Positions 1-26,296 of a stretch of DNA of 26,296 nucleotides are shown here, piece by piece (position 1 is the stretch's first letter; the number at the start of each line of letters is the position of its first letter). Below the pieces are notes generated by a model that was not told the origin of the DNA, made no database searches, and saw only the letters and a program-made list of their open reading frames with translations. The DNA comes from a virus. Where the stretch lies: positions 1 to 26,296 of the IMG/VR virus record IMGVR_UViG_3300032223_001093. One strand, given 5' to 3'. The position numbers and the translations under genes are program-made.

Positions 1-3000
1 CCATACATTGCTTTGGCTTAATATATTACCGGCGGTAATTGTTACGTGCCCAGTGTTATCAACTTCTCCCAATATGCCTGCGGTAATTAGATATACACCA
101 GAATCTGCCCCATTTACGTGTAATGTTCCCACGCTATTATCAAATCCGTCGCCGAGACCTGTATAAGTTATGCTTAAATTGTAAGGCGGAATACCTACGT
201 TACCGTCCATGATTGGAGAAACGTTGCTAATAATATTAGCAAAATATGCACCATATACGTTACCAGTTACAATGTAACTATTTCCAGCATAGTACGTGTA
301 TGTTCCTTTGGCAAGGGTTGTATTTGGTGTCCATACTGTTACGTTACCAACTTTGCCAAATGAGTACTCTGGGTCCGAGCTACCAAAGTCATAACTACCA
401 GACTCGCCCATAATTCTTCCCGAATCGTACTGAATTGGTTGGCTACGTATAGTTCCATCAAGTAATAGTACAGGAACAAACGATTGATCTCCGCGTACTG
501 TTTGTAACAATTTCATAACCGAAATATTATTAGTGTTTCCAGTAAATGCAAATGTAAGATTTCCAGATATACTTGCAAAAGTTGTGCCGTATACATTACC
601 GGTAACTGTATAGCTATTGCCGCTATAGTAAACTAATGTATTTTGAGCATAATTGATATTAGCTTTCCAACTGTCAACTGTTTGTTGCTGAGTTAAAATA
701 TCGCCAATGTTTGCTGTAAGATTTCCTGTTAAAGTAATTCCCCTGGTCACATCATCTGTAGTTTTATACACAGTAGTTGATGTAATTCTAACATTACTAT
801 TTGCAGATCCAGGTATTAACTGTTGCTGACTAGTATCTCTGACTCGACTTCCTGCCGGATGTACTAAAGATGGGCTAGAACCATCTGCGGCTCTGCGTAT
901 TTGTGAAAGTGTATTAACACTTACTTGCTCAATGTTGGCAGTAATGTTGGCAAAATATATACCAAATACGTTACCTGTTGTTAGGTAAGTATTTCCATTT
1001 TTAGTAATTAATGTATTTGTAGCAATGATGGTGTTGGCCGCCCATGCTGTCTTATTTTCAAGTGCATAGTTTCTCCAATACACAATCTTTTCGCCATTAA
1101 TAATTAAAGCACCTGGAATATTCAGTGCAGGATTAGGCAATGGTAACTTAGTAGCATCGGCAACAAAAATAGAAGTGTCTGATAAACTTAAAGATGAAGT
1201 CAGCGTTGTTGAGTTTGCCGCAGCAATTCTGTAATAGTTATAGTCTTGATTTATTCCTTGTAATACTCTATAGCCAAGGAAGTCTGTATCAATAACCGAT
1301 AAGTTTAGATTATCGTACATACGACCGGGTACCATTTCTTCTGGTGCGTAGCTTGAGAAAATATCTACATATTTGCCGCCATCAACAAGAATATCGCCTG
1401 GGTTAACACCAAGATTACTTGTGTAACGACTTGAAATACTTGTATCGTAAATGTTTCCTGTAAATGTATTACCATCTACTGTTACGCCAGGATACTCTAA
1501 CCCTTTTTGTGTAAGAGTTAGATCAACATTTCCGGTATACGCAATAATACGATCATTGGCATTATTAAATTCTGATGTAATTTGAACTACATTAGCAACA
1601 GGGAATGTTACTCCAGAATCAATGGTATAAGCGTTGGCTAGTTGATAAAAATTATCATTTAATACTAAAATAGTATCTGTAGGTATTGTTTGGCCAACGT
1701 TGGCGGTAGTAATACTGTCCCAGAATACAAATGTATTTGGATTAGTGTAATTAATTCTATCAAACTTAATTGTAGTATTAATACTTCTAACAACATTATG
1801 CCCGGTATTATTGCTATCGTAAACATTTCGTAAGATAGGATATGCTCTGGCGCCGGTGCCGGTGCCATTGATAATAATCTGTGGGTTGGCTGTATATCCT
1901 TTACCTGGATTAGTAATAATAATTTCAGCAACTCCGCCTTTGGCGTTAATGGTTGCATAACCTTCTGCGCCTTGACCTCCATCTCCGATGATAACAACCT
2001 GCGGAGGAATTAAATATCCTGTTCCAGGATTTTCAATCATAGCATCAACTACTTGATACTTATAATTTTCTGACCACTGACTATATATACCGGTAGTTAA
2101 TTTAGTAGTATCACCTAGCTGTTCGCCACTTGGACTACGGTATACATTCACATTGGCGTCCCAATACGGAGGTAAGTCAAAGTCTGTAATATCTCCGGCA
2201 AATTTATCTTTGCCTTGATAATCAACAACGAATTCGCGCACCGTTGTTCTATATGGCTTAACTTCGTTGACATAATCTAAATAGTAACTTTGGTTATCGG
2301 CAATGTAACTCGGTGATTGGCCAAGTTCACGAATATATTGAGTAGCACTTAAGAAACTTGTCTTGAATACCCATTCAATATTTTTTTGCTCAGACAATGC
2401 ATACTTGACCATAGTGAAGAACAATTGATTGTAATCTAATAATAGATCGTCAATGAATAATTCTGTTTGTATAGCTGTGGCAATTTTACGCATTTCCAGC
2501 GGGGGAATTGTTCCGGTGGAAAATTGAATTGTACCATTTTGTAAGCCAACTAGGTTTTGAGCTAATGTACTGTCAATATAGTATACTTCAAACTGGTTAT
2601 TGCCATTGTTTAATACTTTAACGTAGGTATTAGCTTTAAGAGTTAATTTGCCAAAGTCAATGCGAGTACTAACAGTAACATCTGGTGCTACAGTATAATC
2701 ATATCCCGATTGATACCAATCAACTGTGGACCAGTACAAATTAGTTTTATAGTTTTGTACTCGAGAAAGAGTCCACTCTGTTCCATTCCATGTGTAAATG
2801 GCCCATTTACCTGAATTTGTAGCGTCATTGATAACCAGATAGTTGTAATCTGTTGGTAAGGCATCTGTGTCTACATAGTTTAATTCTACTCGAGTTGAAA
2901 CAGATTTAGACCAGGTGCCAGTATCAATACTTGGAATAGCCTCTTCACTATTAAGTGTAGTCATTAGTTTACGAGCAATTACAGGATACGTTAATATTTT

Positions 3001-6000
3001 ATTATTAACCATTGTTATATAATTGCTCAATGCCATTTCGCGATCAATGAACAAACTCTGGCGCGGTCGTATACTTACGCCATATGCTTGTGCTGGAGTT
3101 AGCGCAGGATCTGGTACTAAATTACCATCTTTATCTTGCCCTGCCAAGCTATCAATTAATTTGTTTTCAATAAATTGAGGAATTTGACTGTGCGGATTAC
3201 CTTCTTGAACTAGTGCATACTCGCTATGTATTAATCCAGCCGAGCGACTACGACTACCAAGATGTATAACACTATTCTTTCCAGTTAGCGCAGAATTAAT
3301 GTTGTACAGAGCCACAGTATCGTTGCGTAAAATCATTGCATAAGGTGTTCCTTGTGCTTTTGGATTTTTTATTGAGCTAGCAATACTATATACGCTATTT
3401 CTCTTTCCAGCTTTATCGTTAATTGTAGTTTTGTTTTTTACCCAGAAATAGTAAGTAGTGTTTACTAGTCCAGTTGGACCAACGCTAGCAAATGTACTAT
3501 AAGCACTATCATCTGGATGTAACGGCGTACCCGTGTAACCATATGCTGCATAAGCTGTATATTGACTAGGTGGTACTAAACTTTCAACCCATTCGTAAAC
3601 ATTAATTTGACTACCCGGGAACATCTGCCCCCAATTAGTTAAGCGATAGATTAATTCATCTTGTTCATAGTTAATATAACGTACAGCATCAACGTCCCAC
3701 CAAATTTTTCCAACTTGTTTTGGGCCCCAATGGTAATCTGAACGAATATTTAAATTAGGAATTAAAGTAATATCGCCGTTGTTGTATAATGCAGGATCGT
3801 TAGTTAACTGATAATCAATATCCGAACCTACTGTGCTTAATACTTTACCTTTGGCAGGATCAATAAAATCTAATGCAGATAAAATAAGATTATTAGATTT
3901 ATTATAAATGAATGTACGATTAATACTGGTTATATCAACGCTAGGACTTTGTTGTCTTGTACGTGTCCATGTAGATCCATTGTATGTATATACTGCCCAA
4001 CCAGTTGCGCCAGATTGTGTATCTGCATTTACCCACACACGGTCGTTAGCAATCCAGCCGCTAGCTGGTGCAACAGAACTAATTTGGCTATAGGAATTAA
4101 TAACCATTGATGTAAGTTTATATATAGTACCAATGCCAACTAATTTTCCGCCTGCGGCTGTAATAGTTGATGTATTGGCAACACTTATAGTAACACTCGT
4201 TGAGTCAGGTACAGCAACAACTTGATACATACCATCGTATCTAGTATTAAATCCTTGTAGTACAAAATAATTACCTACGCTAAAATTGTGTGCGCCAGAG
4301 AATACCAATTGAGCATAGTTATCAAGTTCATAATTTAATGTTGTGGCTGTTACACTTACATTAGCAACTCTATAAACATTCCACCCCGGTGTAAAGTCTT
4401 TTGCTACCCAGATTTTTTTGCCCGCTGTTAACGAAGGTACTACAGTAATAGCATTAATATCAAAAATTTGATAATCAACATCGGCAAGATTTACATATCC
4501 GCACCCAGGTAAATCATGTGAGTATAAATCTGTGGTTCTATTACTGTAGAGTGCAGTGCCGGTACTAGCAATATTGCTACCGTTGTAGACATTTGATGTA
4601 ATAGAATTGCCAGTAACAGCTAAGTTAACAATAATATTACCGGCACTATATGTAGCGTTTACATTAGCATTAGCTGTAAATGCAACTGGGTTAGTTGTAA
4701 ATACACTTTGGTCAAGTACAAACTCTGTGTATAAGTTATTATTAATGTCACCATAACGACCAACTTGGAAAGCCCATTCTTCGTATATACCAACGTTGCC
4801 GCCAACTGTATCAAAGGTGGCTGTAGTTAACGATGTAATTGCATTGGTTGTACCTTTTTGGTGTATGTATCCTTGATAAAACTTAGTTTGTGTGGGAATA
4901 CTAATTCCTAAATTACTCAAGAATGGACGTTCACGGAATCCAATTAAACCGGCACTGAATATTTGATAGTTTTCATCTTGTGGCGGACGATCAATATCAT
5001 AGATATTTGAAAATACCTGTGCGTTGTGACCAAAGCTAGGCAATAGACCTGTTTGTAAATCACGTAATGAAATTAATTTCCAAGCAATTGGATTAAAAGT
5101 TTGACTAGCTACAATATTGTTTGGTGCTGTATAGTATGAATTATTAAATGTAATAATATCGCCTTGTTTATAGTCTGTACCGGGTTGCCAAGATGTAATT
5201 GTTGGGTCACTGTAAATGTAGCCAGCCGCACTTAATGCGCCATCCCATAAACCAGTTTTTGCTCCGGTTAGTTTTAAACGATACTGGCGTGTTCCTTGTT
5301 CAGGAATATAAAGAATATCACCAAAGGTATCTACGTTATCAAATATTAATGCGCTTTCGTACTGTATTAAGTTTAATTCAGCCAAGGCAATGGTACTGAA
5401 TCCATCAACCGTAACTACTTGGAATTGATTTCCTGTAGGATAGTCGACACGCAATACATCAAAATTATTGCTCTTAATTGTATTAAAGTTTGTATCTAAT
5501 AAACGACTACCGTTTGGTGTATTTGTAATAGCATCGATTACAGTACCATTGGTTTGTACGTCAAGCGTATCTTTAACTGGGTTTAATACAATCAATGTGC
5601 CTGGACCAAATCCTTGTTGTGTCCAAAATAGAAATTCATTAACACTTAGTAACCAATCTCGAGTTTGTTCTAAGTCTGTATCAAATTGTTTGAATACAAA
5701 ACCTTGTTCATTTAAATATCTCTGATAACTTATTAAGAAATCTGCTACTTGTTGAGCACTAGTAAATGTAGTTCCATAAGGTATCACTACAGGTTGCTGT
5801 GTACTATTTTTATATAATTTTACAGTAATGTCGTTTACAGTTAACGATTGAGAATTACCATATGTTACACTTGGTATAATAGTAAAGAAAGGATTAGTAG
5901 TATTATATCCAGCAACAGTATAGCCAGATTCTACTTTAGTGACAATAACAGCACTATAGGTAATATTTTTTGTAGGCACCGATTTATTCAAATACACAGA

Positions 6001-9000
6001 ATAGTTGCCGTCGGGAATAATAACCGACGCATTAGTACTTCCCGGACTTGTTTGCTCGGCAGTAACTTTAATTAAATTCTGATCAGTAAATCCAGCAATA
6101 CGATAAGCAAGTTGTACGTTGAAATTTTTAAAATAATTTTCAAGTTTTGCAACAGGATCAATTCCAAGATTTTTAATATAATCTGCAATCCAATTTAAAT
6201 AACCGCTTGTTCTTTGCACTGAACCTTTAACAGTAACAGTATCTCCGTTAACTGTTAAAAGTGTCGGAGTAATTGCTTGGTTTAATGTATTACTAAAATG
6301 CCCGGTTACTGGATTTTTATAAAAACGACTTAAATCAATTTGCGAACTAAAATATTGTGCTGGACGAGTTAACGCTAATGCTTGTTGTATAGCATATGGA
6401 TAATCGCTGCTGTTGCGCCAGGCGTACTCTACTGGGCCAATCTGTCCTACCTGGAAGCTATCGCCTGCTGTGCGTAAGTCACGTTGACGTACAATACCTG
6501 CTTGTGCAGGATCTAACAAGTTACCAGCAGAGTCTACTGGGATAAAATTAACTAGACCAGGACGAGCAAACCGTGCATCTGTATATGCTGTGGAATTGCT
6601 ACCGTTCCAGACATAACCTCTTTCAAGATCTTCCCACAATGTTGTATTACCATTGGTATAAGGCGCCGGACCATAGCGTGTTTCCCACCAACTTGGTTTT
6701 TCTGCTATACCTAACATTTGCCATGGACTACGATGTGGTTCAACTGTATCAAACCAGTAATTATAAATGGCACGCCAAGACCCTTGTAAAGTACTGCCAT
6801 CTACAGTATCTGTAAATTGGCTGTAATTCCAAGTCCACGGATTATTGGCATCAAACCATTTATTAGTGGTATAGTCAATGTTGTTATTTCCTACCCACCG
6901 TAAAAAGTTTGTTGTTAATACTTGTGTCCACTCTAAGTGAGTGTAGTCTGTTGTTCTGAAGCGTCCAGGTTGTGTATTATATGGATCCATTACCCCGCGC
7001 TTGTGTACTGACTTAGTATTATTATAAATTCGTTTTTCTAATTCTAATAGGTAGTCATCTCGGAAGTCGCCAAACGCTGGAGTTAAGCTACCGTCGTGTC
7101 CACGAATAACTCTAGTAGGTGTTAAGTATGAGGAATCTACAAAAATTTCTGGAGCAGAGTTTTGCGTTAATCCAAGTTTGCTTGGTGTTTCTGGAATATA
7201 GTTACCGTCGGTATTATCATATTCACGTATAGTAATACTGTCACCCACAGTCAATGCAATATTAATTAAAATTTCAGGACTGATTCGACTAAAAGAAAAA
7301 TCAATTCCGTTTCCAATTAACTGAACACCGTTGTGGTACACTAATACAGCACGATTACTTAATTCTGTAGGATTAAAAATGCTGTTAATTTCATAGGTCT
7401 TTTGACGAGCATTTAATACAGTATACTTAATTTCATTAAAGTTGCTGCCCTGTGGTATCATATCACTGTAGTACCACGGGAATGAACTGTTTTTAACTGA
7501 GTTAATTGTTTGTAAAATAGTATCAACGCCAGTTACCGGATTTGCGTAATCTAAAGTTGTTATCTTTTCACATAAACTTAAAAATTTATTTTTAAATCGA
7601 GTATATTCATTTCGAGCTAATGCAATACTGTCAATAAAATTAACTGTAGGGTCAGATAAGAAAGTCATTGCATATACAACTGGACTACTTTGTTGTAGTA
7701 GTGTTCCGCCTTGAGCTTTTAAATATCTATCTTGTGCAGGGATAGCCTTTGTTGGGCTAATGGTTGTGTTTTCAAGTAACTTATTATAATGAGTACGTAG
7801 TTGACCAAGAGTAACTGTTGAAAAGTTTTTATTTAAAGGATTGTAGTCAAGATTATTTGGGACTTCATAAAAACCCAAAGTACTAATACTGTCGCTTAGT
7901 ACCAATACGTCAATTTTATCTTTTAATGCTACACTAACATTTAATGTAACAACGTAATAAATGCCATATGGTACCAATTGATAATCAGTATTGGGGCTTA
8001 GTATTTTATTGTTTAAGTAAACTTTAAGATGTGGTTTAGTAGCTTCGGCCTTGGGCAATACATCAATTTGAACAAACGGATAGTTAACACCATCAACGGC
8101 TATTTGGTATCCTTCGTGAAACTTGGTAATAATCTGATACTGTTCACTTGGCTCTACTCCTAGTATCCAATTGTTTAGTTTAGTGGGATTGTTTAGGCCA
8201 GACTGTTTAACAATATATCCACTACTACAATTAACTGTGGCTGTTGCGCCGGTGTTGGTATCTGTGATGTAAGTAAACGTGTCAGTATCGTAATAATTAG
8301 CAAATACAATGTCGCCAATGTTATTAAAGTTTTGATACTTTAATGGAAATCCTAGTATAGGATCGTTTGTGCCGGCAACCACAGGATAACCAAAGAATTT
8401 AGTTCCAGCAAATGTTGTACCAGGATATACAGTGGTATCGGTAAAACTATAACCGTCGGCATCAACTAAATCAAATAGCGGAGCTTGTTGTACAGAAGTT
8501 TTTACTTGACTAGTATGCCAGTTTGTGCCATCAAACCAAAAAGTTTTTCCAGAATTTGCTACACCCTGGGTGACAGTTATGCATTCGCCGGCATTAATAG
8601 GATCGTCGGGGGTTGCCAACAGTCTAACAAAGTTTTGACCATTGATTCGTTCAATGTCTATTTGCCATACTTCATTTTTACTTAACTGATCGTAGTCGTT
8701 GGCAAACACCACACGCATACCTTGTATTAAGGTTACTCCGTCTACAGATTTTGGCGGTGTTGTTTGCGGTCCTTCAATATCAACAAAGGCGTCAGTTGAT
8801 TCAAATGTAATTACATCTACGGAATTTTTAGCCTGTGTTCCGTAATTAAATAATTGTAAGCGTGATTCAAATTCAATAATTGCACGACGACCATAAATGT
8901 TATCACCGTAGTCAACACTAGTTTGATTGTACATAGCTGTTGCTTCTAGTACATCTCTGTGGAACCAACGATTACTACGCGACCATGCATTTAAATCTTG

Positions 9001-10539
9001 GCTAGCACGATTAATTGTAATATAGTCTGGGGAAGTTGCAAGTGTCTGACCAAATGCTTCAGGTACAACTAATTGTTCTATTGGTACTAGTGCAATACCG
9101 GTGCCAACGCCTTCTACATAAAATTGTTTATTAGCGTAGGTAGTAGGATTCACTAAACTATCAAATTCAATTTTTAATCCATTGGTGAACGAAATGCCAT
9201 TTGGACTAGTGTATGCGGACTTACCAACAATGTCTGTGTCTACGTTAATTGGTGTACTGTTGTTGTCAACTAATTTAATTACGCCAAGGAATTCAGGATT
9301 ACTACTATCTTGATAGTATAGGTAATCAGCAATAGCTGTTATTGGTGGAACTTCGGCATATTGATAGTTTGCATTTAACCAGAACTGTTTTGATGCATAA
9401 GTTTTACCCGACTTAATAAAAACTTTTTGATTTGGTTTAACTTCTGTGACTGGAACAATTTGAATAATTGAATCGCCATCCGGACCGGGTGCTAAATTAA
9501 TTTGCCAAACACTTGGGCGTATAGTCCCTGGTACAATACCCGGATAAAAACTATTTGAGTCAAATCCTTCGGCTATATTATCAAATGGAAAAAAATCCAT
9601 TAATCCGTTGGATTCCCACTTAAAGTTATCTGTTACATTATTAATGAATACAATAGTTTTTCCTTGAAGTTGATTAGTAACTCCATCGATCCCTTCAGGA
9701 AAATTTCTTAAGAACTCGCTCAGTGAGGTATTTTGTATGTCATTATAATTAAATGTTACTGCTGCTGTTACGTTTTTATTAGCAGTTTCTAGATTGATAT
9801 AAAAATCTTGTGCATTAAATAACGGAACATTAAATTGCACAATACCAGAATCTGTGCCATTGTTTTTAACGCCAAATACTTCACGAGTACTTAATGTAGG
9901 AATGTGAGGATCTACACCATTAACACCGGGCTGACTTTGAATCCAGAATTTACTTCCTGGCTGGTTGACTTTAAAAGTGTATGTTCCTCCACGTGCTAGA
10001 GTAATTTGCTGGTCTGGGTGACTGCTTAAGCCGCTAAATGTGTAACCACCAACGGCTGTATTTCTTGTTACAGTATAGTCAGCTTGCATTGGCGTCAACC
10101 CACTGGTAATTAATACACTAGCAGGACCGTTGGGTAACCAATAATAGTTGTGATAGTTTACAAATTTGTCGTAATCAAAGTGACCGTCGTAGTTATAAGT
10201 GTCGGACCCAAATAAACGCTGATGGTTATTATTAAAGCTACGATGATTTCCAATACTTTGTAATAGGTCGATATACTCACTATTAAAAACTACATCGCCT
10301 GCATCATTTTTAACAACAACACTAGGCTCAAGTTGATAATTTGTTCTATTTACAGTTGACTCTGGTACGTAGTTATCGCCTAATTTATAAGTTGGTGCAA
10401 AGGTGCGACCAATGTATCCATTGATTGGTACGTTAGCAGCATCTGTTGCCAATTGATCCATTGTTGCGCCAAGGAATCGTTGGTTGGTAGTTGATCTAAA
10501 TGCGTCAGGTAAAAATTTAAGAGTGTTAATTAAAGCCAT
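1..10539 (-). CDS. Giant baseplate/tail structural protein (3' end outside window)
   Basis: I read this frame codon by codon from the ATG at 10539 to base 1 and found no stop, so the protein has at least 3513 residues and continues beyond the window. Its ATG shares one base with the TAA of gp6 (TAATG), and an AGG lies about 12 bases upstream. The N-terminus (MALINTLKFLPDAF, then a YNYDGHFDYDKFVNYHNYYW-type stretch near residue 120) resembles large virion proteins that follow gp6 in marine T4-like phages; this is recalled family knowledge, not a search. The position after gp6 is where T4 has wedge protein gp7 (about 1030 residues), so a role in the outer baseplate or as a tail-associated adhesin is inferred. 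The first two thirds are mixed beta-type sequence rich in Tyr, Asn and Thr. The last third carries repeated modules: W...YNG..W units, an NPGxGY pair, and three 34-residue repeats at residues 3166, 3291 and 3403. No enzyme motif was recognised. Confidence 0.85.
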   Translation of the reverse strand, partial: MALINTLKFLPDAFRSTTNQRFLGATMDQLATDAANVPINGYIGRTFAPTYKLGDNYVPESTVNRTNYQLEPSVVVKNDAGDVVFNSEYIDLLQSIGNHRSFNNNHQRLFGSDTYNYDGHFDYDKFVNYHNYYWLPNGPASVLITSGLTPMQADYTVTRNTAVGGYTFSGLSSHPDQQITLARGGTYTFKVNQPGSKFWIQSQPGVNGVDPHIPTLSTREVFGVKNNGTDSGIVQFNVPLFNAQDFYINLETANKNVTAAVTFNYNDIQNTSLSEFLRNFPEGIDGVTNQLQGKTIVFINNVTDNFKWESNGLMDFFPFDNIAEGFDSNSFYPGIVPGTIRPSVWQINLAPGPDGDSIIQIVPVTEVKPNQKVFIKSGKTYASKQFWLNANYQYAEVPPITAIADYLYYQDSSNPEFLGVIKLVDNNSTPINVDTDIVGKSAYTSPNGISFTNGLKIEFDSLVNPTTYANKQFYVEGVGTGIALVPIEQLVVPEAFGQTLATSPDYITINRASQDLNAWSRSNRWFHRDVLEATAMYNQTSVDYGDNIYGRRAIIEFESRLQLFNYGTQAKNSVDVITFESTDAFVDIEGPQTTPPKSVDGVTLIQGMRVVFANDYDQLSKNEVWQIDIERINGQNFVRLLATPDDPINAGECITVTQGVANSGKTFWFDGTNWHTSQVKTSVQQAPLFDLVDADGYSFTDTTVYPGTTFAGTKFFGYPVVAGTNDPILGFPLKYQNFNNIGDIVFANYYDTDTFTYITDTNTGATATVNCSSGYIVKQSGLNNPTKLNNWILGVEPSEQYQIITKFHEGYQIAVDGVNYPFVQIDVLPKAEATKPHLKVYLNNKILSPNTDYQLVPYGIYYVVTLNVSVALKDKIDVLVLSDSISTLGFYEVPNNLDYNPLNKNFSTVTLGQLRTHYNKLLENTTISPTKAIPAQDRYLKAQGGTLLQQSSPVVYAMTFLSDPTVNFIDSIALARNEYTRFKNKFLSLCEKITTLDYANPVTGVDTILQTINSVKNSSFPWYYSDMIPQGSNFNEIKYTVLNARQKTYEINSIFNPTELSNRAVLVYHNGVQLIGNGIDFSFSRISPEILINIALTVGDSITIREYDNTDGNYIPETPSKLGLTQNSAPEIFVDSSYLTPTRVIRGHDGSLTPAFGDFRDDYLLELEKRIYNNTKSVHKRGVMDPYNTQPGRFRTTDYTHLEWTQVLTTNFLRWVGNNNIDYTTNKWFDANNPWTWNYSQFTDTVDGSTLQGSWRAIYNYWFDTVEPHRSPWQMLGIAEKPSWWETRYGPAPYTNGNTTLWEDLERGYVWNGSNSTAYTDARFARPGLVNFIPVDSAGNLLDPAQAGIVRQRDLRTAGDSFQVGQIGPVEYAWRNSSDYPYAIQQALALTRPAQYFSSQIDLSRFYKNPVTGHFSNTLNQAITPTLLTVNGDTVTVKGSVQRTSGYLNWIADYIKNLGIDPVAKLENYFKNFNVQLAYRIAGFTDQNLIKVTAEQTSPGSTNASVIIPDGNYSVYLNKSVPTKNITYSAVIVTKVESGYTVAGYNTTNPFFTIIPSVTYGNSQSLTVNDITVKLYKNSTQQPVVIPYGTTFTSAQQVADFLISYQRYLNEQGFVFKQFDTDLEQTRDWLLSVNEFLFWTQQGFGPGTLIVLNPVKDTLDVQTNGTVIDAITNTPNGSRLLDTNFNTIKSNNFDVLRVDYPTGNQFQVVTVDGFSTIALAELNLIQYESALIFDNVDTFGDILYIPEQGTRQYRLKLTGAKTGLWDGALSAAGYIYSDPTITSWQPGTDYKQGDIITFNNSYYTAPNNIVASQTFNPIAWKLISLRDLQTGLLPSFGHNAQVFSNIYDIDRPPQDENYQIFSAGLIGFRERPFLSNLGISIPTQTKFYQGYIHQKGTTNAITSLTTATFDTVGGNVGIYEEWAFQVGRYGDINNNLYTEFVLDQSVFTTNPVAFTANANVNATYSAGNIIVNLAVTGNSITSNVYNGSNIASTGTALYSNRTTDLYSHDLPGCGYVNLADVDYQIFDINAITVVPSLTAGKKIWVAKDFTPGWNVYRVANVSVTATTLNYELDNYAQLVFSGAHNFSVGNYFVLQGFNTRYDGMYQVVAVPDSTSVTISVANTSTITAAGGKLVGIGTIYKLTSMVINSYSQISSVAPASGWIANDRVWVNADTQSGATGWAVYTYNGSTWTRTRQQSPSVDITSINRTFIYNKSNNLILSALDFIDPAKGKVLSTVGSDIDYQLTNDPALYNNGDITLIPNLNIRSDYHWGPKQVGKIWWDVDAVRYINYEQDELIYRLTNWGQMFPGSQINVYEWVESLVPPSQYTAYAAYGYTGTPLHPDDSAYSTFASVGPTGLVNTTYYFWVKNKTTINDKAGKRNSVYSIASSIKNPKAQGTPYAMILRNDTVALYNINSALTGKNSVIHLGSRSRSAGLIHSEYALVQEGNPHSQIPQFIENKLIDSLAGQDKDGNLVPDPALTPAQAYGVSIRPRQSLFIDREMALSNYITMVNNKILTYPVIARKLMTTLNSEEAIPSIDTGTWSKSVSTRVELNYVDTDALPTDYNYLVINDATNSGKWAIYTWNGTEWTLSRVQNYKTNLYWSTVDWYQSGYDYTVAPDVTVSTRIDFGKLTLKANTYVKVLNNGNNQFEVYYIDSTLAQNLVGLQNGTIQFSTGTIPPLEMRKIATAIQTELFIDDLLLDYNQLFFTMVKYALSEQKNIEWVFKTSFLSATQYIRELGQSPSYIADNQSYYLDYVNEVKPYRTTVREFVVDYQGKDKFAGDITDFDLPPYWDANVNVYRSPSGEQLGDTTKLTTGIYSQWSENYKYQVVDAMIENPGTGYLIPPQVVIIGDGGQGAEGYATINAKGGVAEIIITNPGKGYTANPQIIINGTGTGARAYPILRNVYDSNNTGHNVVRSINTTIKFDRINYTNPNTFVFWDSITTANVGQTIPTDTILVLNDNFYQLANAYTIDSGVTFPVANVVQITSEFNNANDRIIAYTGNVDLTLTQKGLEYPGVTVDGNTFTGNIYDTSISSRYTSNLGVNPGDILVDGGKYVDIFSSYAPEEMVPGRMYDNLNLSVIDTDFLGYRVLQGINQDYNYYRIAAANSTTLTSSLSLSDTSIFVADATKLPLPNPALNIPGALIINGEKIVYWRNYALENKTAWAANTIIATNTLITKNGNTYLTTGNVFGIYFANITANIEQVSVNTLSQIRRAADGSSPSLVHPAGSRVRDTSQQQLIPGSANSNVRITSTTVYKTTDDVTRGITLTGNLTANIGDILTQQQTVDSWKANINYAQNTLVYYSGNSYTVTGNVYGTTFASISGNLTFAFTGNTNNISVMKLLQTVRGDQSFVPVLLLDGTIRSQPIQYDSGRIMGESGSYDFGSSDPEYSFGKVGNVTVWTPNTTLAKGTYTYYAGNSYIVTGNVYGAYFANIISNVSPIMDGNVGIPPYNLSITYTGLGDGFDNSVGTLHVNGADSGVYLITAGILGEVDNTGHVTITAGNILSQSNVW
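232..1044 (-). repeat. Three 34-residue protein repeats near the C-terminal end of the giant protein
   Basis: Units lie at 943-1044, 568-669 and 232-333, each exactly 102 bases (34 codons). Each begins with Trp and ends with a FANI or FASI-like tetrapeptide. The shared core is GN(S/T)Y.(V/T)TGNV(Y/F)G followed by (Y/T)FA(N/S)I. Unit starts are 125 and 112 residues apart, so each is probably the conserved heart of a larger domain of about 115-125 residues. The pattern of an initial Trp, a Gly/Asn-Thr turn, Tyr pairs and a GN-Tyr turn recalls small carbohydrate-binding folds of the CBM5/12 type; that likeness is only suggestive. Confidence 0.85.
1831..2037 (-). repeat. Tandem NPGxGY repeat pair in the giant protein
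   Basis: Two adjacent units in the giant reading frame start with NPGTGY (N codon 2029-2031) and NPGKGY (N codon 1909-1911), exactly 40 residues apart. Both continue with xxxPQ, a run of Val/Ile, a Gly-rich turn, then GA and Tyr. This Asn-Pro-Gly-x-Gly-Tyr beta repeat is common in phage fibre and other surface structural proteins. Only two copies are visible here. Confidence 0.75.
2755..2805 (-). repeat. W-YNG-W motif, second copy (giant protein)
   Basis: The 17 residues WAIYTWNGTEWTLSRVQ match WAVYTYNGSTWTRTRQQ encoded at 3949-3999, 398 residues earlier in the same protein. A looser relative (WFDGTNWHTSQ) lies at about 8510-8545. These Trp-rich turns probably belong to a recurring surface module. 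Confidence 0.7.
3949..3999 (-). repeat. W-YNG-W motif, first copy (giant protein)
   Basis: Encodes WAVYTYNGSTWTRTRQQ, the partner of the copy at 2755-2805. The three Trp/Tyr positions and the Asn-Gly turn are kept, while surrounding residues differ, so this is an old protein-level duplication and not a recent DNA repeat. Confidence 0.7.
5080..5190 (-). other. CBM5/12-like Trp/Tyr module inside the giant protein
   Basis: The reading frame gives WQPGTDYKQGDIITFNNSYY starting at residue 1784 and closes with NPIAW near residue 1820. The order Trp, Tyr, Gly-Asp, hydrophobic strand, Asn-Asn/Ser-Tyr-Tyr, closing Trp is the arrangement of the short carbohydrate-binding fold found in chitinases and many phage tail proteins. 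Similarity is by eye only; sugar binding is an inference. Confidence 0.45.
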
Positions 10540-19983: not shown

Positions 19984-20880
19984 ATGGCACGCCACAACTA
20001 TTTAAATAATAAAGATATTTTAAAAGAAATCCACAAAAGCAAGAATACATATTGCTACTACACAAGTCCCGAAGTTGCGGACTACGACATGATTTTACCT
20101 AGTGTTGCTAAAATCAATAAAAAGAACATCATGCAAGCACGTAAAGATCGTGCTACTCGACTAGCTAAACTAGCCTACGATGCACACCACGCACAAGAAG
20201 GTGCAGTTAAACGTAAAATGGACGAGTTTGAAATCAAGCTCAAAGACATTGCTGATACAGATGTAGTATTCCGTGTAATGACCTGGGATCATATTCCGGT
20301 TGACGATGCTAAGTCGCGTAAAGCTGCTATCAAAGCTCTAGAAGAAGATGATGGTCCGGTACGTTCAGAGTACGACGACGAAGAATTAGACTTAGCCGGT
20401 AATACAAAATATGTTAAAGTAAACTTTCCACCGTTTGAACACTTTAAAGTCGACGAAGAAGGCAATCCAGTACTAGTAGGTCGTAGTCATTGGAAAGGCG
20501 ACTTTGCTAAAGGATCATTTAATCGCGATCATGGTAAGATGACTCCTAAGCTGGCTCATATGTTTATTAAGCTCTGTGAACGTTATGCTACACGAAGCAA
20601 CTGGCGCGGGTATACTTATAACGACGAAATGCGCAGCCAAGCATTACTACAGTTAAGTCAAATTGGCCTACAGTTTGATGAATTCAAATCACAAAATCCT
20701 TTCGCTTATTATACAGCGGCAATTACAAACTCATTTACTCGTGTTCTAAATATTGAAAAGCGTAATCAAAACTTACGTGATGATATTTTAGAAATGAATA
20801 ACCTAACTCCATCCTACACACGCCAGGGTATGAAAATATCTACTAGCACCGGTGGAAGCGACGGCGGTTACGACGATTAA
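19984..20880 (+). CDS. 55: RNA polymerase sigma factor for late transcription, gp55-like
   Basis: A 298-residue protein. The N-terminus (HNYLNNKDILKEI, residues 4-16) and the segment at about 187-262 match T4 gp55. The latter includes YATRSNWRGYTYNDEMRSQA, then FDEFKSQNPFAYYTAAITNS and FTRVLNIEKR, a sigma region 2-like core that binds RNA polymerase and melts the -10. T4 gp55 is about 185 residues. Most of the extra length is a charged insert at about 20-185, containing an Arg/Lys-rich helix (AKLAYDAHHAQEGAVKRKMD, 61-80) and an acidic stretch (118-136). T4 gp55 ends in a hydrophobic clamp-binding motif; here the last 15 residues are Ser/Gly/Asp-rich without one. The ATG at 19984 has AAAGGA upstream. 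Its stop overlaps the next ATG (TAATG). Confidence 0.9.
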   Translation: MARHNYLNNKDILKEIHKSKNTYCYYTSPEVADYDMILPSVAKINKKNIMQARKDRATRLAKLAYDAHHAQEGAVKRKMDEFEIKLKDIADTDVVFRVMTWDHIPVDDAKSRKAAIKALEEDDGPVRSEYDDEELDLAGNTKYVKVNFPPFEHFKVDEEGNPVLVGRSHWKGDFAKGSFNRDHGKMTPKLAHMFIKLCERYATRSNWRGYTYNDEMRSQALLQLSQIGLQFDEFKSQNPFAYYTAAITNSFTRVLNIEKRNQNLRDDILEMNNLTPSYTRQGMKISTSTGGSDGGYDD

Positions 20881-22070
20881 TGGATTTACCACAAAATTTT
20901 TGTGTAGCTCCATTTATACAACATACTACACACCCCTCGGGGTCGTGTAGCCCATGCCCTTACCTTGGGGGTACTACTTGGCCCGGGGATTCATCAAATA
21001 TATTACAGCAATGGACTAGTACAAAGCTAGAACAGTTGCGTTCTGATTTTTTAAATAATCAACAACCTGCTATGTGTCAACGCTGCTGGCACGAAGAAGC
21101 AAACAATAAAAGAAGTTTACGTTTACGTTTGTTTGACCCTGTAAACAAAACCAGCGACTATCAATTTGCCACCCCAGAATTAATTAATCAACGTATCAGT
21201 GATCAAGCATACATGTCTGGACCAGTGGTATTAACAATAAAGAACGGCAATATATGTAATGCTAAGTGCCGTGTATGTCACCCAAATGATAGTAGTCGTT
21301 GGGTAGCTGATGCTGATAAACTATTTGAAATAACTAAAAAACGTTATTACAACCTAGGGCAAGAAGAAACTAACTGGACTGACAGTCAACTTGATGAAAT
21401 TGTAGAACTATCCCGTAATTTAGTTAGACTAGAGTTGTTTGGCGGCGAACCCACTTATAATAAACAAGTAGCTGTGTTGCTAAACAGATTGGTTGATGAG
21501 GGTTTATCAAAAAATATTACTTTGTATATCAATACCAATGGTAGTGTTAACATTCCTAAACGCTTGCCAATGGTTGCAGGATTTAAAGACGTTGAGTTAG
21601 GGGTGTCGCTCGATGGTGTGGGCAGCCACTTCAATTATATTAGGCACGGGGCAGATTGGGACGAAGTCGTTTCCAATATCCGTCAAGCTCAATACTTCTT
21701 TACCAAACACAAAATCAAATACTGGATTGATTCTATTAGTACCGTTAGTATATTAAATGTTTACTACTTGCCAGAACTTAAACAGGCTGTACAAGAAATA
21801 CTACCACTGGCACCATACTGGAACTTATTAATTAATCCCGAGCATTTGTTTATTAAGAATATGCCAGATCATGTTAAACAGGCTGTAATTGAAAAATTGG
21901 GCGATGCCGAAGACTTTCAAGAACTTGTCTCGGTTATGAAACAACCTGCAGACTTAGCCCAATGGGATAACTTTTTAGAAGTTACTGCAGGTCTGGATCA
22001 AATAAGAAAAGAAAACTTTGACGCTACTTTTCCAGAGTTTGCCGAATTAATTCGAACAAATACCAATTGA
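20880..22070 (+). CDS. Radical SAM protein with N-terminal twitch-like cysteine cluster
   Basis: A 396-residue protein. The radical SAM site C126-x3-C130-x2-C133 (NICNAKCRVCH) binds the 4Fe-4S cluster that cleaves S-adenosylmethionine. FGGEP at 187-191, TNG at 219-221 and SLDG at 243-246 are the expected SAM-binding and barrel-strand motifs. Ahead of the core, C8, C23, C26, C66 and C69 form a twitch-like set that may hold an auxiliary cluster; in SPASM/twitch enzymes such as PqqE this domain usually follows the core. The linker after it (RCWHEEANNKRSLRLRL) fits the C-x-x-C...E...S-R pattern of twitch radical SAM proteins reported from marine phages. The substrate is unknown; peptide or protein modification is the commonest role of the family. 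It is joined to gp55 by TAATG, has no promoter seen, and is probably translated by coupling. Confidence 0.82.
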   Translation: MDLPQNFCVAPFIQHTTHPSGSCSPCPYLGGTTWPGDSSNILQQWTSTKLEQLRSDFLNNQQPAMCQRCWHEEANNKRSLRLRLFDPVNKTSDYQFATPELINQRISDQAYMSGPVVLTIKNGNICNAKCRVCHPNDSSRWVADADKLFEITKKRYYNLGQEETNWTDSQLDEIVELSRNLVRLELFGGEPTYNKQVAVLLNRLVDEGLSKNITLYINTNGSVNIPKRLPMVAGFKDVELGVSLDGVGSHFNYIRHGADWDEVVSNIRQAQYFFTKHKIKYWIDSISTVSILNVYYLPELKQAVQEILPLAPYWNLLINPEHLFIKNMPDHVKQAVIEKLGDAEDFQELVSVMKQPADLAQWDNFLEVTAGLDQIRKENFDATFPEFAELIRTNTN

Positions 22071-22095: not shown

Positions 22096-22104
22096 TGCAA
22101 CTAT
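22091..22104. repeat. Perfect 14-bp palindrome across the gp47 -10 and start codon
   Basis: ATAGTTGCAACTAT is its own reverse complement. It begins inside the -10 hexamer and ends on the first two bases of the gp47 ATG. It could be the operator of a dimeric repressor or could affect initiation on the near-leaderless mRNA. The related string ATAGTTCCAA lies at 19854-19863, also beside a start codon, but is not palindromic. Confidence 0.7.
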
Positions 22105-23119
22105 GACTAATCTATTCAAAAAAGCCGCTGTCTTTACAGACATTCACTTTGGGTTAAAATCAAACAGTACTTTGCATAATGAAGACTGTTTGTCTTTTGT
22201 TAAATGGGCTACTGCCAAAGCTAAAGAAGAAGGATGCGACACAGCATTATTTCTCGGCGACTGGCACAACAATCGTGCTAGTATTAATATCCTAACACTA
22301 CAATACAGTCTACAAGCACTAGAGCACTTAAATGCGAATTTCGACAATACTTACTTTATTCCTGGAAATCACGATTTGTATTATCGCGACAAACGTGATG
22401 TACAATCTGTGGAGTGGGCCAAGCACCTTAGTAACATCCATATTTGCAACGATTGGATTAATTACGGCGACGTCACTATCGCTCCGTGGCTTGTCGGTGA
22501 TGACTTCAAGAAACTCAAAAAGCTAAAAGGCAAGTATATGTTTGGGCATTTTGAATTGCCCGGTTATTTAATGAATGCTATGGTAGCTATGCCGGACCAT
22601 GGAGAAATGTCAGCTACAGACTTAAATGGCTTTGAGCATGTATTCTCGGGGCACTTCCACAAACGACAAACTAAAGGCAATGTTACTTACATTGGCAACT
22701 GCTTTCCACACAACTATGCCGATGCCGGTGACGACGATCGCGGTATGATGATTTTAGAATGGGACAAAGAGCCTGTATATCACGCTTGGCCCAATCAGCC
22801 TTTATATCGTGTGTTTAGCTTAAAGGACGTGCTTAATCACACAGAGGTAATGCTTCGACCAAATATGCACGTCCGTGTAAACTTAGACGTAGACATTAGT
22901 TATGAAGAAGCTACGTTTATCAAAGAAACATTTATCGACACTTATAAGTTGCGTGAGATTACACTTATCCCAGCTAAAGTAACCGACTTAACCGACTACG
23001 AAATACAAGGCAATATTGAATTTGAATCGGTGGATCAAATTGTATTTGGTCAATTAAACTCAATTGAAAGCACACAGTTTAACAAAAATCTATTGTTAGA
23101 CATTTACAGGAATTTATAA
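22103..23119 (+). CDS. 47: Recombination endonuclease subunit, gp47-like (Mre11/SbcD type)
   Basis: A 338-residue metallophosphoesterase, the nuclease half of the gp46/gp47 complex, which in T4 resects DNA ends for recombination-dependent replication and host DNA breakdown. All metal-site motifs are present: FTDIHFG (D13, H15), LGDWHNNR (D53), GNHD at 88-91, GHFE at 148-151 and SGHFHKRQ at 182-189. The length equals T4 gp47 (about 339). The C-terminal third is the less conserved partner-binding region. The ATG at 22103 has no ribosome site; it lies about eight bases after a -10 element and inside a palindrome, so leaderless initiation is likely. Its stop overlaps the ANL gene by one base, which separates it from its usual neighbour gp46. 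Confidence 0.93.
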   Translation: MTNLFKKAAVFTDIHFGLKSNSTLHNEDCLSFVKWATAKAKEEGCDTALFLGDWHNNRASINILTLQYSLQALEHLNANFDNTYFIPGNHDLYYRDKRDVQSVEWAKHLSNIHICNDWINYGDVTIAPWLVGDDFKKLKKLKGKYMFGHFELPGYLMNAMVAMPDHGEMSATDLNGFEHVFSGHFHKRQTKGNVTYIGNCFPHNYADAGDDDRGMMILEWDKEPVYHAWPNQPLYRVFSLKDVLNHTEVMLRPNMHVRVNLDVDISYEEATFIKETFIDTYKLREITLIPAKVTDLTDYEIQGNIEFESVDQIVFGQLNSIESTQFNKNLLLDIYRNL

Positions 23120-24570
23120 TGGAAGTTATTAGCAGGCACTACGTCACACCTAATTTATTGTATAATGGACCAACTGGTTTTCAAAAGTTTAATTACAATG
23201 ATTTAGTTGATAGTATTAACTTTTGGAAAATTATATTGTACGAAGGTTACAATATGCGCCCGGGCATGAGTATTGCATTAGTTGATCAAACCGTTAAATT
23301 CTCTTATTGTAGTTTATTCTTTGCAGCCGCCGAATTGGGTTTGAAGATTTTAATTTTCCCCGAGAAGTCTAATCTTAACGACGGATATAGTCCTAAGATG
23401 GAAAGCATTACAAAAAAATGGGGATTAGTAGATTTAATTTATCACGACCAACTTGTTATCAAAACACCAGCATTGTTAGCTATGTGCAATCGTTACGGAA
23501 AACAAACAATAAACGAAAATGTATTTTATAGTTATTCTATAAAAGACCACGATCTATTTGAAGAAATTAAAGAAAAAATATTCCCAGAGCCTAGTGATGT
23601 TTTAGTGTGGACCGCTACTAGCGGTACTACTGCTGAACCTAAATTACTTGAATACACGCACGAACAATTATATAGAATTGGCACACGGAATGCCCAGGTA
23701 CTTGATTTGCCTGGGCAAAGTATTGCACACTTACGCAATATGCATCATGCTAGTGTGTTGATGTCTAACTTTTTACCAGCATTTGGATTTGTAGACTCTC
23801 ATCACGAATTTGTCATTGATTTGTCTACCGATGTAACTAACGGGCAACTTATTAATTTTATTAATAAAAATAAAATTTCTCGATTGGTAATCCCGTGGAA
23901 AACTATGCTTGATAGTTTACTCAGTTACATGATTAAAAATAATATAAAGTTTGAACACGAACTTCATGTTATTGTTGGCGGATTTTATGTAACAGTTGAC
24001 TACATTAAAACTATGCAGGCTACCAATATTACAAAAATTGTTAGTATGTATGGCAGCAATGAAACATTTGGACCAATTTTATTACGTACCGTTGACCAAC
24101 ATGCGTCTACGGACAACTATGTAGATGGCTATTTAGGTACTCCACCCGACGACTTTTATCAAATTGACTTAGTCGGTGATCGACTTCAAGTTACGTGTCC
24201 TGCTATATTTGCGGGCACAAAAACATTAGAAGATATCTTTACTGGCAACAACGAGATTGGGTATACTCATAGTGGGCGAAGTAATTTTTACAGAATTAAT
24301 GAAGTGGATTTTTTACCACAAGATATTAATCGAGTTATTAGGTCAGCAACAGATAATACAGAAGTTGACGTAGTTGTTGATTTACCTCGCCAAAAATTGT
24401 ATGCAGCAATATGGTCTGGTGCGTTTAACCTAACCATTGCTAATCGTTACTTAGCTATCGAATATCCCGGTCTAACTATCGCTGATTCAGATTTACTAGA
24501 TAAACGAAAATTTGAAGATTTTAAATTAAATCAAGATGCATTACGAATGCATTTTAGAAGCCGACAGTAA
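23119..24570 (+). CDS. ANL-superfamily adenylating enzyme (acyl-CoA synthetase/AMP-ligase-like)
   Basis: A 483-residue AMP-forming enzyme that should activate a carboxylate with ATP as an acyl-adenylate; substrate and acceptor are unknown. The phosphate-binding loop is TSGTTAEPK at 167-175 (family TSGTTGxPK). The A5 motif is MYGSNE at 310-315 (YGxTE). The hinge region reads SGR at 385-387 followed by LPQDINRVI at 399-407. FKLNQDALR at 468-476 aligns with the family GKIDRKALR, so K469 is the likely catalytic lysine. The ribose-binding TGD appears as TGN (375-377), an Asp to Asn change, with a shortened loop after it. It is a little shorter than typical members (500-600). AGGA lies about eight bases before the ATG, which forms TAATG with gp47. 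No carrier-protein or thioesterase gene is nearby. Confidence 0.85.
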   Translation: MEVISRHYVTPNLLYNGPTGFQKFNYNDLVDSINFWKIILYEGYNMRPGMSIALVDQTVKFSYCSLFFAAAELGLKILIFPEKSNLNDGYSPKMESITKKWGLVDLIYHDQLVIKTPALLAMCNRYGKQTINENVFYSYSIKDHDLFEEIKEKIFPEPSDVLVWTATSGTTAEPKLLEYTHEQLYRIGTRNAQVLDLPGQSIAHLRNMHHASVLMSNFLPAFGFVDSHHEFVIDLSTDVTNGQLINFINKNKISRLVIPWKTMLDSLLSYMIKNNIKFEHELHVIVGGFYVTVDYIKTMQATNITKIVSMYGSNETFGPILLRTVDQHASTDNYVDGYLGTPPDDFYQIDLVGDRLQVTCPAIFAGTKTLEDIFTGNNEIGYTHSGRSNFYRINEVDFLPQDINRVIRSATDNTEVDVVVDLPRQKLYAAIWSGAFNLTIANRYLAIEYPGLTIADSDLLDKRKFEDFKLNQDALRMHFRSRQ

Positions 24571-24599
24571 TTGACTATACCCATAATTTTATCTATACT
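24571..24599 (+). promoter_or_regulatory. Sigma70-like promoter for gp46, very short leader
   Basis: TTGACT (24571-24576) begins on the first base after the ANL stop codon; a 17-base spacer and TATACT (24594-24599) follow. Both hexamers match five of six consensus bases, making this the best promoter in the window. The predicted start near 24606 leaves about four bases before the gp46 ATG, too short for a ribosome site, and none is present. Confidence 0.7.
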
Positions 24600-24609
24600 A
24601 GTAAACTAA

Positions 24610-26296
24610 ATGTTTAAAATAAAAACTCTAACCGTTAAAAACTTTATGAGCGTGGGTAACACTACCCAGGCGGTTAACTTTGACCGCAGTGATTTGACCT
24701 TGGTATTGGGTGAAAACTTAGACTTGGGCGGAGACGACTCCGGTGCTCGCAACGGTACAGGTAAAACTACAATTATTAATGCTTTGAGCTATGCCTTGTA
24801 CGGTAACGCACTTACTAACATTAAGAAAGACAACTTAATCAATAAGACTAACCAAAAGAACATGGTGGTTACTATTGATTTTGAAAAGGACGGAGTAAGT
24901 TACAGAATTGAACGAGGACGTAAGCCAACAGGCATGCGCTTCTGGGTAGGCGACACAGAAAAAGAAGTAACTGATGATGCACAAGGTGATAGCCGCGAAA
25001 CACAACAAGAAATAGAACGTATGCTAGGTATGAGTCACGATATGTTTAAGCATATTGTAGCACTTAACACTTATACTGAGCCATTCCTAGCACTTAAGGC
25101 AAACGATCAGCGAACCATTATTGAACAATTATTAGGTATTACGCTATTAAGTGAAAAGGCTGATAAGTTAAAAGAATCTAATAAAGTAACTAAAGATGCT
25201 ATTACACAAGAAGAGTTTCGTATTAAAGCTGTAGGCGATGCTAACAAGCGCATCGAAGAACAAATTGAAAGCCTAAAGCGTAGACAAACTCTATGGAATA
25301 ACAAACACGATGAAGAGATTAATAAGATTCAAGCGGCAATTGAAGAATTACAGAAGATCGACATCCAGGCCGAGATTCAGGCACACTCGGCGTTTAAAAC
25401 TTGGGATCAGAAACGAAAGGATCTCAATGAACTATCGTCGGCGATTAGTCGGGCAAAGTTGGACCTTTCCCGGGAAGAAAAAACGATTAGCAAGATATCT
25501 GCAGAGATCGTTTCATTGGAGAATCATACGTGTCATACCTGTGGACAGGATTTCCATGACGAAAAGCACCAACAAGTATTGGGACTCAAGCAGGGAGATC
25601 TATCTAGAGCAACTGAGGCTAAGGAAGAACATGCTACCCTCCTGGCTGAACTACAATCAGCTCACGATGGGTTGGGCAAATTAGAACCACGTCCAGAAAC
25701 GTTTTATGATAAAGAGTCAGATGCTATCCATCATCAAGCATCCGTTGATAATTTAATTAAACAATTAACAGCCAAGGCTGCAGAGTCCGATCCTTATGTA
25801 GAACAAATTGCAGAAATGCAAACACAGGGCTTAGAAGAAATTAGTTATGATGTTATGAACGAATTAACTAACATTCGTGAGCACCAAGAGTTCTTGCTTA
25901 AACTATTAACAAACAAAGATTCATTTATTCGTAAACGTATTATTGATCAAAATTTAAGTTATTTAAATGCCCGCTTGGGACAATACCTGGATCGTATTGG
26001 ATTACCACACACAGTTAAGTTTAACAACGACTTATCTGTATCCATTACTGAGCTAGGTAGAGATTTAGACTTTGACAACTTGTCACGTGGTGAACGCAAC
26101 AGACTTATTTTAAGTTTGTCGTGGGCGTTCCGTGATGTTTGGGAAAGTTTATATCAACCCATTAACTTGTTGTTCATTGACGAGTTAGTCGACAGCGGTA
26201 TGGATAGCTCGGGTGTAGAAAACAGTCTTGCTATCCTTAAAAAGATGAGTAGAGAAAGCAACAAATCAATTTGGTTAGTGTCACACAAAGATGAAC
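24610..26296 (+). CDS. 46: Recombination endonuclease subunit, gp46-like (Rad50/SbcC type), C-terminus cut by window
   Basis: 562 codons are open from the ATG at 24610 to the window edge. T4 gp46 is 560 residues, so only a short tail should be missing. It is the SMC-like ATPase partner of gp47. The N-terminal ATPase half has Walker A RNGTGKTT at 47-54, preceded by an acidic GENLDLGGDDSG loop. Charged heptad-rich coiled coils follow, with a zinc-hook C308-H-T-C311 between them. The second ATPase half has the ABC signature LSRGERN at 491-497, Walker B LLFIDE ending at D524-E525, a D-loop DSGMD, and a switch histidine in SHKDE at the edge. The coiled coils are short, as in phage members. It has its own promoter and no ribosome site, and lies downstream of the ANL gene. 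Confidence 0.95.
   Translation, partial: MFKIKTLTVKNFMSVGNTTQAVNFDRSDLTLVLGENLDLGGDDSGARNGTGKTTIINALSYALYGNALTNIKKDNLINKTNQKNMVVTIDFEKDGVSYRIERGRKPTGMRFWVGDTEKEVTDDAQGDSRETQQEIERMLGMSHDMFKHIVALNTYTEPFLALKANDQRTIIEQLLGITLLSEKADKLKESNKVTKDAITQEEFRIKAVGDANKRIEEQIESLKRRQTLWNNKHDEEINKIQAAIEELQKIDIQAEIQAHSAFKTWDQKRKDLNELSSAISRAKLDLSREEKTISKISAEIVSLENHTCHTCGQDFHDEKHQQVLGLKQGDLSRATEAKEEHATLLAELQSAHDGLGKLEPRPETFYDKESDAIHHQASVDNLIKQLTAKAAESDPYVEQIAEMQTQGLEEISYDVMNELTNIREHQEFLLKLLTNKDSFIRKRIIDQNLSYLNARLGQYLDRIGLPHTVKFNNDLSVSITELGRDLDFDNLSRGERNRLILSLSWAFRDVWESLYQPINLLFIDELVDSGMDSSGVENSLAILKKMSRESNKSIWLVSHKDE

Follow-up and report, generated by a model that had tools for sequence, protein, structure and literature searches.

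An adenylate-forming enzyme of the ANL superfamily is encoded between gp47 and gp46 in the phage DNA analyzed here (the window, 26,296 nucleotides), at a junction which in relatives is empty or differently filled. The ANL gene is under purifying selection and its catalytic residues are kept. We consider it fairly probable that it is exchangeable cargo of a hypervariable gp47/gp46 slot, a probably active carboxylate-activating enzyme which serves small-molecule or surface-glycan chemistry and not DNA processing. The question thereby shifts from DNA processing to metabolic gene trade among jumbo phages.

Among annotated phages, the gp47-like proteins nearest to that of the window come from jumbo phages of 280–490 kb (PA5oct, the PBECO4/121Q group, Phosso and Atu_ph07), and the related contigs in IMG/VR are up to 354 kb long. 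The window thus represents part of a jumbo T4-like phage genome. The sequence-only reading had placed a full-length ANL gene between gp47 and gp46, overlapping gp47 by one base and directly followed by a new promoter for gp46. This layout was confirmed (Table 1): the ORF is real, its flanking genes match PHROG families, the overlap takes the form TAATG, and the promoter-like site recurs in a relative (L160). No tRNA genes were found within the window. Positions 1–10539 of the minus strand hold a very long ORF for a virion structural protein (at least 3513 aa, PHROG 10938), which extends beyond the window.

Table 1. Features of the gp55-gp47-gp46 region and of the ANL protein (window positions)
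Feature	Position	Strand	Evidence or remark
gp55-like late sigma factor; left edge of gp55/gp47 (first) cargo slot	19984..20880	+	PHROG 12791, 9e-79
Twitch-domain radical SAM protein (N_Twi_rSAM); gp55/gp47 slot cargo	20880..22070	+	NF033640, 289 bits
gp47 (SbcD-like); left edge of gp47/gp46 slot	22103..23119	+	PHROG 100, 1.7e-62
TAATG junction, gp47 stop/ANL start, 1-nt overlap	23117..23121	+	
ANL adenylate-forming enzyme, 483 aa; gp47/gp46 slot cargo	23119..24570	+	PF00501, 36 bits; AF2; Foldseek
A3 P-loop TSGTTAEPK, aa 167-175	23617..23643	+	S168, G169, T171 invariant in family alignment
H209-H210, motif A4	23743..23748	+	Alignment: H210 on MenE His of IYHISGL
A5 YGSNE, aa 311-315	24049..24063	+	
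D372, motif-A7 Asp, ribose-binding position	24232..24234	+	hhalign and MAFFT against canonical phage ANL
T375-G376-N377 (TGN), strand end and hairpin tip, not motif A7	24241..24249	+	DSSP on model, strands 367-377 and 381-387
R387, motif A8 Arg	24277..24279	+	At least 90% conserved
K469, motif A10 Lys	24523..24525	+	Invariant across 10 family members
Promoter-like site TTGACT-17-TATACT upstream of gp46	24571..24599	+	10/12 matches
gp46 (SbcC-like); right edge of slot, extends beyond window	24610..26295	+	PHROG 77, 8.9e-100

A variable slot between gp47 and gp46

Searches with gp47, gp46 and ANL yielded 119 distinct loci in which gp47 and gp46 were complete enough to judge. The junction was empty (60 nt or less between the two genes) in 47 of these and occupied in 72, and all 122 cargo ORFs of at least 100 aa were co-oriented. 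Twitch radical SAM proteins occurred as cargo in 21 loci, SGNH-like proteins (named by eye) in 20, sulfotransferase-like proteins in 16 (Pfam match below cut-off) and ANL in 9. Further cargo included other radical SAM proteins, an amidinotransferase-like protein (by eye), Trp halogenase, epimerase, UDP-sugar dehydrogenase and methyltransferase. A second slot was detected at the gp55/gp47 junction; the radical SAM gene that fills it in the window is absent at the same place in a close relative, L003. In the isolates PA5oct, PBECO4 and Vibrio phage 2.275.O, gp55, gp47 and gp46 follow one another without cargo in either slot, and in Phosso a glycosyltransferase gene precedes gp47, with two small ORFs in the gp47/gp46 gap. 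Most cassettes, all ANL cassettes included, had no homing endonuclease gene, and nuclease-like ORFs were seen by eye in a few non-ANL slot loci.

Where the slot is empty, in relatives as in PA5oct, the start codon of gp46 shares one nucleotide with the gp47 stop codon (TAATG), and ANL uses this same junction in the window. ANL therefore took over the start position of gp46. A promoter-like site before gp46 (at least 10/12 matches) was present in 22% of occupied slots, as compared with 8% of empty ones and 2% of shuffled sequences.

Across the 119 loci, variable non-core genes are located between the same conserved core genes, as in a hyperplastic region. T4-like phages are known to carry hyperplastic regions with metabolic cargo (PMC2984593, PMC3037559), among them a hot spot near gp46-gp25 (PMC3037559). 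In both cases, host-derived or metabolic genes are found among conserved core genes, with halogenase and carbamoyltransferase as shared cargo; however, the variation described here is that of jumbo phages and concerns one junction, gp47/gp46 (together with gp55/gp47). We found no report of the gp47/gp46 slot in the literature searched. T4-like hyperplastic regions, and a phage ANL in UniProt, are already known; as far as our searches reach, the jumbo-phage slot, an ANL family bound to it, the exchange of ANL alleles and the association with TctC receptors are new. The slot also offers an easy route to collecting the passenger genes of these phages.

Active site and predicted substrate of the ANL protein

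The Pfam AMP-binding model (PF00501) matched the window ANL above the cut-off (36 bits) and covered residues 150-342 only, and the model of the C-terminal domain (AMP-binding_C) did not match it. The P-loop, YGxNE motif and K469 pointed out in the sequence-only reading are all present, and the protein has the ANL superfamily motifs A3, A5, A7 Asp, A8 Arg and A10 Lys together with the two-domain fold. An AlphaFold model (pLDDT 87, pTM 0.80) gave 623 matches in the PDB at E ≤ 0.001 with Foldseek, those listed being ANL enzymes (best E 4e-24; highest TM among the matches listed, 0.74). PF00501, the motifs and the fold of the model thus support a full-length adenylate-forming enzyme. The window ANL shares the fold, the P-loop, A5 Glu, A7 Asp, A8 Arg and A10 Lys with solved ANL structures such as MenE (5bus), McyG (4r0m) and feruloyl-CoA synthetase (8wev). 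However, it is only 12–18% identical to them, its A7-A8 hairpin is short, no carrier protein is found near the phage ANL (12 records) and no cellular relative was found by the patterns used. A single-sequence search of the PDB gave no match. The best viral structural match was A0A6J5L571 of UniProt ('AMP-dependent synthetase/ligase' of an uncultured Caudovirales phage, in BFVD; E 1.6e-36, 27% identity).

The sequence-only reading had also reported TGN in place of the TGD motif, which turned out to be a misreading. As a reference for motif A7 we used the canonical ANL of a sister phage (L190:7761-9248; PF00501 200 bits, AMP-binding_C present). In the hhalign alignment with this protein, D372 of KTLED pairs with the Asp of CRTGD; in a MAFFT alignment of 13 proteins, all 13 have Asp in, or adjoining, the D372 column. 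In the AlphaFold model D372 is in the middle of a strand (367-377), and N377 forms the tip of the hairpin. The A7 place is held by the Asp of LED, and the three analyses rule out a loss of the active site through a TGD to TGN change.

Another explanation is that the ANL fold is used for nucleotide or ligand binding, in regulation or in interference with immunity, with no adenylation taking place. The partial Pfam match and the unrecognized C-terminal domain are consistent with such a pseudo-enzyme, as are two family members with damaged motifs (L107, which has lost the P-loop Lys, and the second copy L208b, in which both the P-loop and the A10 Lys are gone). However, the P-loop, E315, D372, R387 and K469 are all retained in the window, L003, L163, L164 and L166, and the dN/dS of ANL is about 0.12 (L017/L107), indicating that the protein is under purifying selection. 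We regard the pseudo-enzyme as improbable; judging from their residues, the window ANL and its close relatives are probably active adenylating enzymes.

Alpha-amino-acid adenylation domains have Asp at the place aligned with H210. The window ANL has His at this position (D235 of PheA, used as the test for alpha-amino-acid adenylation in NRPS), and this residue aligns with the MenE His, which makes an acyl or aryl acid a likelier predicted substrate than an alpha-amino acid. No PP-binding carrier protein was detected in 12 related phage records, the window itself being a fragment. The activated acid may be passed to CoA, a small molecule or a glycan, and not to a phage carrier protein.

Exchange of ANL alleles and restriction to the slot

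In the pair L017/L107, gp47 and gp46 are 61% and 63% identical and ANL is 92% identical; identity is 57% before the gp47/ANL junction and 91% after it, and drops past ANL. The opposite was observed in L163/L164/L166, with gp47 97–99%, gp46 95–99% and ANL 52–70% identical. For L164/L166, dS was 1.56 in ANL versus 0.43 in gp47; thus, alleles were replaced and did not merely evolve fast. The same pair is mosaic within the gene: a block of aa 310-447 has 87% nucleotide identity and the rest of the gene 66% (z 8.2 versus a permuted maximum of 4.8). For L164/L163, an intragenic mosaic was not significant. Recombination inside adenylation domains is known from NRPS (A-core, PMC8097286), and both cases involve recombination in an adenylation enzyme by which part of the N-terminal core is swapped. 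The phage enzyme differs in being free-standing, and its shared block begins with A5 and reaches into the C-terminal domain. Between the window and L003, dS was similar and saturated in gp47 and ANL (2.1 and 2.2), which is compatible with vertical descent and faster protein change in this pair. The argument for replacement rests on L163/L164/L166 and L017/L107 and not on window/L003.

ANL moves as a single-gene cassette whose ends are the gp47 stop and a point just before gp46. One core junction acts as a docking site at which strongly diverged ANL alleles are swapped beside almost identical neighbors, a pattern that selection for diverse chemistry would be expected to leave. In the mechanism we propose, the conserved gp47 and gp46 would provide homology arms for recombination between co-infecting phages, and different ANL alleles would activate different acids.

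With ANL queries we obtained 20 loci (several from the same or near-identical phages), 19 in the gp47/gp46 slot and one in the gp55/gp47 slot. A scan of 20 long contigs with the family profile found no slot-type ANL outside the slot, where canonical ANL gave weak matches at the P-loop, and no copy of the same ANL that could stand in for empty slots. Neither tblastn against 50,697 phage records nor a single-sequence pattern scan of viral contigs yielded a direct relative of ANL; relatives were found instead through flank-based searches and alignments. For ANL and TctC alike, no cellular relative was detected in genome contigs, a weak absence since the pattern method reaches close relatives only. 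The ANL family is so far a phage family found only at the gp55-gp47-gp46 region. A restriction this close to exclusive goes beyond what entirely free cargo would predict, and a positional function is conceivable; recombination between slots explains the restriction as well.

These data bear on the earlier proposal that the ANL chemistry is tied to the gp46/gp47 complex. A search for the same insertion in phage genomes had been suggested, and a random scatter of it named as evidence against the link. ANL does recur in the gp47/gp46 slot, but most other occupied junctions carry unrelated cargo; its distribution is patchy and shaped by horizontal exchange, but always returns to the gp55-gp47-gp46 region. 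That ANL might act with the gp46/gp47 nuclease, or modify phage DNA or protein, is suggested by this restriction and by the 1-nt overlap, which could mean co-translation with gp47. However, the overlap is the ancestral gp47/gp46 junction, the ANL history is discordant with those of gp46 and gp47, and the junction is empty or holds unrelated metabolic genes in close relatives. Since its passengers are swapped in this way, a direct role in DNA processing is argued against, and we consider this explanation very improbable. The slot census and the discordant divergence ruled out ANL as a functional part of a gp46/47 operon.

Receptors, neighboring genes and possible function

In five phages (L163, L164/L165, L075, L208 and L218) ANL adjoins a gene for a TctC-family periplasmic receptor, assigned in L208 and L218 by resemblance only. 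All TctC genes found in the slot adjoin an ANL (Fisher p 1e-4 for the 72 occupied loci, a small sample in which the cases are L163, L164, L075 and L208); when only gp47/gp46-first loci were counted, the association was 2/2 versus 5 ANL among 68 (p about 0.004). Since either gene may come first and the receptors of two lineages share only 36% identity, the pairing does not go back to one recent event. TctC receptors are common in Burkholderiales, which provides a host lead.

It is possible, if unlikely, that the phage TctC collects a carboxylate together with TctA/TctB of the host or phage, and that the adjacent ANL activates it, as acyl-adenylate or as CoA thioester, for use in nutrition or biosynthesis. 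The recurrent pairing in the slot is consistent with this, as are the presence of TctA in G017 and the repeated occurrence of non-slot TctC genes next to SGGxDS PP-loop enzymes. However, there are only five slot cases, the slots of the window, L003, L166, L107 and L017 are without TctC, and TctC is also found in genomes without slot-type ANL and adjoining other genes. Such capture and activation overlaps with the best explanation, to which it adds a specific physiological purpose. We hold equally tentatively, as an unlikely but possible case, that the ANLs are phage-only, slot-bound enzymes whose specificity is shuffled by gp47/gp46 recombination and which are paired with phage periplasmic receptors for environmental carboxylates. 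Bacterial TctC-type receptors bind carboxylates such as terephthalate (PMC8556258) and quinolinate (PMC11452294). The recurrent link to carboxylate receptors leads to a short, testable list of substrates.

The PP-loop enzymes next to TctC-like receptors, which are another AMP-forming type, were found at L180:209-2418, L183:1225-3467, L196:4562-6812 and L209:356-3584, with TctA located between the two genes in L209. L196:6833-7774 resembles a TRAP-type receptor. The slot of L208 (5013-8797) contains a TctC-like receptor and two tandem ANLs, of which the second is the damaged copy mentioned above.

Under the preferred explanation, cargo of a variable slot, ANL would be used like other cargo of these genomes, in small-molecule or surface-glycan decoration during infection. 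Such a role is likely and was read from the ANL neighbors and the cargo company only. Non-slot ANLs of these phages cluster with genes for radical SAM proteins, Trp halogenase, carbamoyltransferase, DegT aminotransferase or SGNH-like proteins.

A natural-product-like cluster of this kind is present in a 345-kb phage (G001, L190:635-16542), with three twitch radical SAM proteins, a carbamoyltransferase, the canonical ANL, a Trp halogenase, an amidinotransferase-like protein and a DegT aminotransferase. In G006, the contig of L003, a short ANL (363 aa) with intact TGD and NGK motifs is clustered with glycosyltransferase-like, SGNH-like and several radical SAM genes (L195:3065-13029). An unusual expansion of N_Twi_rSAM was also observed in G001, G002, G007, G008, G017 and others, which have 12–21 matches per genome of ~340 kb, mostly above the curated cut-off.
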